NCBI GenBank assembly: GCA_021777225.1
Contig: JAJYDQ010000003.1
Location: forward strand, 1 to 64,000
DNA: 64,000 bases
Direction: 5' to 3'
DNA from: Deltaproteobacteria bacterium
Lineage (GTDB): Bacteria > Desulfobacterota > Desulfomonilia > Desulfomonilales > Desulfomonilaceae
Shown: positions 5,781-7,265 of the stretch, in pieces
Layout: each line of letters opens with the position of its first letter
How positions within the stretch are numbered: the stretch's first letter is position 1
Notes under the pieces: model-generated
Told to the model about the DNA's origin: nothing
Databases searched by the model: none
The model's input: only the letters and a program-made list of their open reading frames with translations
Position numbers and translations under genes: made by a program

Positions 5781-5808
5781 TTGACCTGATCAGGAATCTC
5801 GTTATACT
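5781..5808 (+). promoter_or_regulatory. Sigma-70-type promoter of the panCD transcript
   Basis: TTGACC at 5781-5786 and TATACT at 5803-5808 are separated by 16 bases. Both hexamers match consensus at five of six positions. Transcription would start near 5815-5818 and give a leader of about 140 bases before panC. This is among the best promoter matches in the window. Confidence 0.65.
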
Positions 5809-5817
5809 AAATTTAAT

Positions 5818-5954
5818 GGGTCTAGAGTACCTCTATGAGGGACCTGGAACACATTGATTAAAACAATAAGAATCCGCTTGGATCGTATTGACCGGGACGG
5901 AAGGAAATAAGTAGTAGCGCTGTACGCCTTCCCTTGTTCGGGAAGGCTTTTTTT
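5818..5954 (+). ncRNA. Structured leader RNA of panCD, candidate pan motif
   Basis: About 137 bases between the promoter and panC contain several possible hairpins. TAGAG at 5823-5827 pairs with CTCTA at 5831-5835, and the flanking GGTC (5819-5822) pairs with GACC (5841-5844). A second helix can form between CAATA and TATTG around an ATCC/GGAT stem; an alternative uses TCCG with CGGA and leaves a bulged A. The leader ends in a terminator-like hairpin. The pan RNA motif is known upstream of pantothenate genes in Deltaproteobacteria, Firmicutes and Chloroflexi and is a hairpin with bulged adenosines, so this leader is a good candidate. I cannot align it to the covariance model here. Confidence 0.5.
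5926..5954 (+). terminator. Terminator-like hairpin in the panC leader, overlapping its ribosome binding site
   Basis: GCCTTCCC and GGGAAGGC form an 8-bp stem with a TTGTTC loop, followed by a run of T directly before the panC ATG at 5955. The 3' arm contains GGGAAGG, the only good Shine-Dalgarno sequence, eight bases before that ATG. The hairpin could therefore stop transcription, hide the ribosome binding site, or both. Confidence 0.75.
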
Positions 5955-6830
5955 ATGGTTGGATCAATGGACACCATTACTTCAGTTCGCGAAATGATTG
6001 AGTGGTCAAGATTTCAAATTTCCTGTCGCAAAGACACGGGCTTTGTTCCAACCATGGGATACTTGCATGATGGTCATTTGAGCTTGGTAAACAGGGCGCG
6101 CTCTGAAAATGATTCTGTCGTAGTAAGCGTGTTTGTAAATCCCACCCAATTCGGTCCCAACGAAGACCTCAGCGTTTATCCCCGTGATCCTGATGGAGAC
6201 TCTGCAAAACTTGAAGCGGCCGGCATAGACGTGCTGTTCGTGCCTGAGGCTGGAGAGCTATACAGTCCAAGCCATGAAACCTTCGTGGAATTGGAAAGAT
6301 TGTCCCGTCATCTTTGCGGCAAATCCCGACCGCTTCATTTTCGCGGGGTCGCAACGATTGTCCTGAAATTGTTTAATATTGTTCTTCCCACTAATGCTTA
6401 CTTTGGCAGCAAGGATTATCAGCAATTACAGGTGATCAAGAATATGGTCAGGGACCTTAACGTGAACACCATGGTTATCGGTTGTCCTACCATCAGGGAA
6501 CATGACGGGCTCGCTATGAGTTCTAGGAACTCTTATCTATCCCCAGATCAAAGGAAACAGGCGATCTGTCTTTACGATGCCCTTATGATTGCCAGGAGAT
6601 TGTTTGCGGCACGGGAACCCGACCCCAACGCCTACCTTCAGGCCATGAAGAGCAGAGTTCTGTCTGAACCTGACGCCTTGCCGGACTACATAAGTCTAGT
6701 CCATCCGGAAACTCTGGAGAACCTTACAACTGTAAACTACAACGCTTTGGCTGTAATGGCCGTAAGAATTGGGAAGACCAGATTGATCGACAATATGCTG
6801 CTGGCCGAACCGGCCTCAAGAAATCAATAG
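5955..6830 (+). CDS. panC: Pantothenate synthetase
   Basis: 291 residues from the ATG at 5955; the family usually has about 280-290. The enzyme joins pantoate and beta-alanine using ATP in the cytoplasm. Visible signature motifs are PTMGYLHDGHLSL (nucleotide-binding, HIGH-like), FVNPTQFGP, FGSKDYQQL and MSSRNSYLS. The start at 5955 is chosen because GGAAGG lies eight bases upstream; an in-frame ATG at 5967 (MDTITSV) matches the family N-terminus slightly better and remains possible. A TTG at 5934 lies inside the terminator hairpin and is rejected. panD follows after 78 bases, so the two steps feeding pantothenate from aspartate are in one transcript. Regulation by the leader RNA is likely. 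Confidence 0.95.
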   Translation: MVGSMDTITSVREMIEWSRFQISCRKDTGFVPTMGYLHDGHLSLVNRARSENDSVVVSVFVNPTQFGPNEDLSVYPRDPDGDSAKLEAAGIDVLFVPEAGELYSPSHETFVELERLSRHLCGKSRPLHFRGVATIVLKLFNIVLPTNAYFGSKDYQQLQVIKNMVRDLNVNTMVIGCPTIREHDGLAMSSRNSYLSPDQRKQAICLYDALMIARRLFAAREPDPNAYLQAMKSRVLSEPDALPDYISLVHPETLENLTTVNYNALAVMAVRIGKTRLIDNMLLAEPASRNQ

Positions 6831-6908: not shown

Positions 6909-7265
6909 ATGCAAAGGACAATGCTGAAATCGAAAATACATCGGGCGACAGTGACAGGCGCTTGTGTTGATTATGAAGGAAGCGTCACAATTGATTCCCG
7001 TCTACTTGACGCGTCGGACATTCTTGAGTACGAACAAGTCCAAATTTACAATGTATCAAACGGTGAGCGTTTCGCGACGTACGTGATCAAAGGGGAACCT
7101 GATTCCGGCGTGATTTGCCTGAACGGAGCCGCGGCGCGCAAGGTTTCCGTGCGTGACCTCGTCATAATATGCTCCTACGTAAGCGTTGATGACGCTGAAT
7201 GCAAGAACCACAAGGCCACAAATATCTTTGTGGATAAAGATAACAAAATAGAAAGGATGCATTGA
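6909..7265 (+). CDS. panD: Aspartate 1-decarboxylase, pyruvoyl-dependent proenzyme
   Basis: 118 residues, a normal size for PanD. It decarboxylates aspartate to beta-alanine, the second substrate of PanC. The self-cleavage site Gly24-Ser25 is present in YEGSVTID, which would give the pyruvoyl group on the new N-terminus. The KSKIHRATVT segment near the start is the family hallmark. GGAG lies seven bases upstream of the ATG at 6909; a second ATG at 6921 is less likely because MQRTMLKSK resembles other PanD starts. It is followed by a strong terminator at 7347. Confidence 0.96.
   Translation: MQRTMLKSKIHRATVTGACVDYEGSVTIDSRLLDASDILEYEQVQIYNVSNGERFATYVIKGEPDSGVICLNGAAARKVSVRDLVIICSYVSVDDAECKNHKATNIFVDKDNKIERMH

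Follow-up and report, generated by a model that had tools for sequence, protein, structure and literature searches.

A 3' strand of the pan RNA shared between hairpin 2 and a predicted antiterminator in the panC leader of a Desulfomonilaceae bacterium

The window analysed here is a 64,000-nucleotide stretch of DNA from a member of the Desulfomonilaceae (Desulfobacterota). It carries panC (TIGR00018) and then panD (TIGR00223), presumably in the same operon. The host panB is on another contig, where it is followed by a ketopantoate-reductase-like gene; no pan match was found at this panB. Upstream of panC lie a promoter, a leader of 137 nt (5818–5954) and an intrinsic terminator whose T run reaches the ATG at 5955 (Table 1). 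These features agree with the preliminary description, which had noted a good promoter, a leader of this length and an 8-bp stem with a T run directly at the panC start. Each of the 20 family leaders with pan has TTGAC at a matching position before hairpin 1, as read from their sequences, and the promoter, the two hairpins, the terminator and their spacing all recur in the leaders of relatives. The folding energy of the leader (z = −1.95) was considered as proof of structure and set aside as not decisive.

Table 1. Features of the panC leader and of the genes behind it, in coordinates of the window.
Feature	Position	Strand	Details
Sigma-70-type promoter	5781..5808	+	TTGACC (5781–5786), 16 nt, TATACT (5803–5808); 10 of 12 consensus positions
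pan RNA (Rfam RF01749), two hairpins	5819..5904	+	cmscan 37.3 bits, gathering score 36.2; full-length model 1–92
pan hairpin 1	5820..5850	+	5821–5825 with 5844–5848 (5 bp); bulged A5826 and A5849; inner pairs 5827–5828 with 5842–5843; outer pair G5820-C5850; seen in the MFE fold
pan hairpin 2	5874..5900	+	CCG 5874–5876 with CGG 5898–5900; 5877–5881 with 5892–5896; bulged A5882 and A5897; 5883–5884 with 5890–5891
Switch strand GGAAGG	5899..5904	+	3' end of pan; part of it is paired in hairpin 2, the alternative being the antiterminator pairing with 5927–5932
Terminator 5' arm GCCTTCCC	5926..5933	+	its CCTTCC (5927–5932) is common to antiterminator and terminator
Intrinsic terminator	5926..5954	+	GCCTTCCC-TTGTTC-GGGAAGGC (5926–5947), 8-bp stem, 6 G-C, 6-nt loop, then TTTTTTT (5948–5954)
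GGGAAGG, terminator 3' arm and putative panC Shine-Dalgarno	5940..5946	+	8 nt to ATG 5955; anti-SD duplex −6.5 kcal/mol
panC, pantoate--beta-alanine ligase	5955..6830	+	TIGR00018, 316 bits, cut-off 213; alternative start 5967
panD, aspartate 1-decarboxylase	6909..7265	+	TIGR00223

The suggestion that this leader is a cis-regulatory RNA of the pan type, made from its place upstream of panC, was borne out by cmscan against Rfam, in which RF01749 is the sole family to reach its gathering threshold within the window. The match has an E value of 1.3 × 10−4 in 1 kb and of 0.008 in the whole 64 kb, and its margin over the gathering score is narrow; close relatives reach up to 48.2 bits. A genome search gave a single pan copy in the host, the one before panC. 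A match to snR40 on the minus strand (15 bits, E = 3.8) was rejected as chance. The two hairpins are built alike: two bulged As, one on each strand, enclose 5 bp, and two inner pairs follow. Both marks of RF01749, hairpins broken by two conserved bulged As and the tandem arrangement that most members have, are found here.

The pairing of the pan tail with the terminator 5' arm is most likely the conserved switching element, which the preliminary description overlooked. This antiterminator (5899–5904 with 5927–5932) is incompatible with both hairpin 2 and the terminator. According to fold predictions, a transcript that extends as far as 5938 adopts the antiterminator fold, and the full-length leader forms both hairpins and the terminator with no ligand needed. 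Constrained folding, with energy parameters that leave kinetics out of account, puts the antiterminator and the hairpin-2 state −3.0 kcal/mol apart in the host leader and −0.5 ± 2.5 kcal/mol apart on average over 20 family leaders. Such near-equal energies of the two folds (mean 0.5 kcal/mol, 20 leaders) are as expected of a switch. In the antiterminator hairpin, the tip would be made by the spacer AGTAGTAGCGCTGTA (5907–5926), which lies between the tail and the terminator and is kept within the genus (L010, L011, L012 and L014).

At E ≤ 0.1, pan was found in all 18 Desulfomonilaceae genomes searched, and in none of 24 genomes of the class's other family at the E cut-off used. In nearly all genomes of the family it lies 50–70 nt before the panC match. 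Two of them (L008 and L013) have, besides the panC copy, a second pan with a terminator upstream of panB. PanC itself is about 60% identical between genera; the pan hairpins, the tail, CCTTCC and the T run are nearly constant across the family, and the linkers vary freely. The terminator is present in 20/20 family leaders and CCTTCC is identical in every one of them, while its purine partners, in the pan tail and in the terminator 3' arm, vary from A to G only. These changes keep G-U pairing, and one tail (L015) has one extra G. An invariant CCTTCC with partners that change from A to G is the pattern expected of a strand with two partners. Within the Desulfomonilaceae the tail-arm pairing rests on conservation and not on covariation, since tail and arm hardly vary, and the significance calculated from this family alone was discarded as weak because nothing varies; for a single locus, unrelated terminators do as well as the real arm in 15% of cases (median) when judged by energy and in 7% when judged by run length.

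For a comparison across three phyla we used 169 pan loci from Desulfomonilaceae, other Desulfobacterota, Desulfuromonadales, Bacillales, Exiguobacterium and Chloroflexota. The RNA was found in 69 of 395 Desulfobacterota genomes. For the order around Alkalicoccus the count was 241 of 300 genomes, and for the phylum around a Dehalococcoidia genome it was 27 of 301. Bacillus subtilis 168 also carries a pan RNA. A terminator-like hairpin stands at most 170 nt behind pan in 159 of the 169 loci; by strict criteria, a terminator follows 145 of them, as against 20 of 517 random windows (3.9%). The mean energy of the tail-arm duplex is −12 to −16 kcal/mol per group, compared with −5.5 to −8.3 kcal/mol for several hundred unrelated terminators from the same loci. 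Arms were registered by best pairing, a step that only the swap control repeats: when arms were exchanged between loci and re-registered, Watson-Crick pairs numbered 4.93 in real and 4.45 in swapped combinations, and none of 500 swaps was as good as the real set. For Desulfobacterota alone, 2 of 500 swaps were as good.

Covariation was evaluated on 40 of the 70 distinct rows; every Chloroflexi row and eight rows with a poor or different register were omitted. In these 40 rows, 98.3% of the cells of hairpin 2 are paired and five of its ten pairs have changes on both sides; for the antiterminator, 92.1% of the cells are paired and five pairs have two-sided changes. Neither covariation score was matched in 500 shuffles. 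The most telling position is column 21 (G5899 in the host), which varies among G, A and C and is paired in 40/40 rows with its hairpin-2 partner (CG 22, UA 15, UG 2, GC 1) and in 40/40 rows with its partner in the terminator arm (GC 16, AU 15, GU 8, CG 1). Examples of tail and arm are CGGAAGG with CCTTTCG, CAGAGGG with CCTTCTG, CGAAAGG with CCTTTCG, and CCAGAAA with CTTCTGG. At the level of sequence, the tail strand covaries simultaneously with its partner inside pan and with the terminator arm. The covariation that the preliminary description had looked to in homologous leaders is present in these rows, for hairpin 2 and for the antiterminator, but not in the nearly invariant tails and arms of the host's own family. 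The Chloroflexi were tried in the same 7-nt register and fitted it poorly, many pairing deeper inside hairpin 2; their pairing is weaker and often runs through the inner part of the same strand.

Loci without a terminator bear on the function of the tail. In Alkalicoccus daliensis (L132) it reads AGAAGGAG and stands 8 nt upstream of the ATG of panB; at L102, from a Dehalococcoidia genome, GGAAGG lies directly before panB. Judged by their sequence and place, both tails are the panB Shine-Dalgarno, a direct translational version of pan. Because the tail is reused in this way where the terminator is absent, the conserved purine tail, which is not part of the hairpin proper, is most readily understood as the strand that carries the output of this RNA.

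Some loci have unusual neighbours. In six from Chloroflexota (L190, L192, L195, L202, L209 and L210) the first gene behind pan encodes a Peptidase_S58 protein (DmpA/BapA-type aminopeptidase), followed by the gene of a DUF2520/Rossmann protein or by panB; two of these loci were confirmed by Pfam. Enzymes of this type can release N-terminal beta-residues, and a role in the supply of beta-alanine for pantothenate is our guess. At locus L207 the gene of a type III pantothenate kinase, coaX (PF03309), begins about 5 nt after pan, so that the pan regulon reaches beyond pantothenate synthesis into CoA synthesis.

Overall, our conclusion is that most pan RNAs act as transcription attenuators and probably as OFF switches, and we consider it likely that an attenuator of this class controls panC-panD in the host. 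In the mechanism that we propose, RNA polymerase would start near 5815 and the two pan hairpins would be made, and an effector from the pantothenate/CoA pathway, a metabolite or an RNA-binding protein, would hold the tandem bulged-A hairpins. With the effector present, the base of hairpin 2 would retain 5899–5900 and invasion by the tail would be blocked, so that the terminator hairpin would form and transcription would stop before panC. With the effector absent, GGAAGG would pair with CCTTCC, no terminator would form, and panC-panD would be transcribed. Read-through would expose GGGAAGG of the terminator 3' arm to ribosomes, with possible co-regulation of translation at ATG 5955. The sequence evidence establishes the pan identity, the terminator and the competing pairings with their conservation and covariation. 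We infer that an effector stabilises the hairpins, that it belongs to the pantothenate/CoA pathway, that termination actually occurs and that a translational layer may be added. The OFF sign we infer from the logic of the two arrangements: a stabilised hairpin 2 would free the terminator, and in the Shine-Dalgarno version it would hide the Shine-Dalgarno.

The preliminary description had named the pan ligand as not known to be established, and none is reported in the open literature searched. We give slightly less than even chances to a dimeric protein, either a regulator of the pathway or one of its enzymes, that binds the pan hairpins with no metabolite involved and leaves the attenuator part of the mechanism unchanged. 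A dimeric protein site was proposed by Weinberg et al. 2010 (PMC2864571) given the simple, tandem hairpins, and the shared geometry of the two hairpins, 5 bp between bulged As on opposite strands, argues for it here. In a strict scan, the hairpin 1 geometry was found in 18 of 20 Desulfomonilaceae leaders (0.2 expected in shuffles), in 30 of 34 from Bacillales and in 20 of 27 from Chloroflexi, with sequences that differ considerably; by chance, fewer than one would be expected in each group. Only 6 of 29 leaders from other Desulfobacterota pass the scan, and the frequency in this group of leaders without a second hairpin of such geometry speaks against the dimeric protein. Inspected by eye, Desulfuromonadales leaders show a hairpin with a slightly altered layout. 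Single-hairpin members of pan seem to exist among the other Desulfobacterota, and hairpin 2 together with the attenuator seems to be the minimal pan unit. In three apparent examples of single-hairpin RNAs (L058, L059 and L064) the promoter sits at the place of hairpin 1.

A metabolite as the effector is a model that we hold tentatively, at clearly less than even chances. Somewhat doubtful in our view is its extension that pan constitutes a metabolite-sensing riboswitch class for pantothenate/CoA, in which the conserved AAGG tail would belong to a common platform, used in most lineages as antiterminator and in a few as Shine-Dalgarno. No CoA riboswitch appears in a 2022 review (PMC10043782), and reviews of that year, this one included, place CoA among the few major cofactors for which no riboswitch is known. 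If the metabolite model were true, pan would be a riboswitch for a cofactor where such switches are conspicuously missing.

The terminator hairpin had also been proposed to control both transcription and translation, which is supported in part. In this alternative to purely transcriptional attenuation, which we rate as possible at somewhat under even chances, the hairpin would also block panC translation, its 3' arm being the Shine-Dalgarno. As claimed, GGGAAGG lies wholly within that arm; with ATG 5955 it makes a good start site by distance and pairing energy (Table 1). The terminator hairpin ends 7 nt before ATG 5955, inside the limit of 10 nt from the start codon published for 'dual' platforms (Barrick and Breaker 2007, PMC2258182), and three close relatives (L011, L012 and L014) have the same arrangement. 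The fit to the 'dual' category depends on the start codon, as the distance suits ATG 5955 and not ATG 5967. The latter is the conserved Met; it is too distant from GGGAAGG, has an anti-SD duplex of only −2.8 kcal/mol and has no good Shine-Dalgarno in the window. Among the 18 panC leaders, an in-frame ATG stands 8 nt behind the arm in four, all of one genus, and a GTG or TTG candidate 6–12 nt behind it in four more; in 10 of them the first in-frame start is at least 13 nt away (13–26 nt or further). A Shine-Dalgarno inside the terminator as a conserved feature is ruled out by these varying start codons. Translational control by the terminator hairpin is possible at this locus and is not the conserved principle.

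Conserved hairpins followed by a constitutive terminator, with no switching and with pan acting as a stability element or as a small RNA of its own, would agree with the full-length RNA forming both hairpins and the terminator without ligand, but this reading is highly improbable in view of the tail-arm covariation, the balance of the two folds, the invariant shared CCTTCC and the terminator-less loci that reuse the tail as Shine-Dalgarno.

The pan motif has been on the list of regulatory RNAs from 2010 onwards, assigned to vitamin B5 synthesis, and the literature searched demonstrates neither a mechanism nor a ligand for it. With the switching strand identified, the attenuator model offers a concrete read-out, terminated versus read-through transcript, and exact compensatory mutants, and candidate effectors become screenable in vitro with the host leader or with other terminator-bearing leaders.

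Taken together, the full-length match over the gathering score, the tandem hairpins with two bulged As and the location upstream of panC-panD correspond to pan as described by Weinberg et al. 2010 (PMC2864571), who report a delta-proteobacterial lineage as one of three for this RNA. The main text of that paper gives no expression-platform mechanism, whereas here the tail is identified as the strand that pairs by turns in hairpin 2 and with the terminator arm, or acts by itself as Shine-Dalgarno. We found no earlier statement of such a strand in what the 2010 paper says on pan or in the other open papers searched, and claim no priority. With 'dual' platforms (PMC2258182) the locus shares, if panC starts at ATG 5955, a terminator 7 nt before the start with the putative Shine-Dalgarno in its 3' side; it differs from them in its uncertain start codon, in a layout kept in few close relatives and in having no ligand assigned. 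The three-state logic and the shared terminator 5' arm are those of OFF-type riboswitches and protein-controlled attenuators, but here, unlike in OFF attenuators generally, the motif's own conserved 3' end is the strand that competes. The locus therefore belongs to the known pan class, to which the family-wide switching strand is a useful addition.
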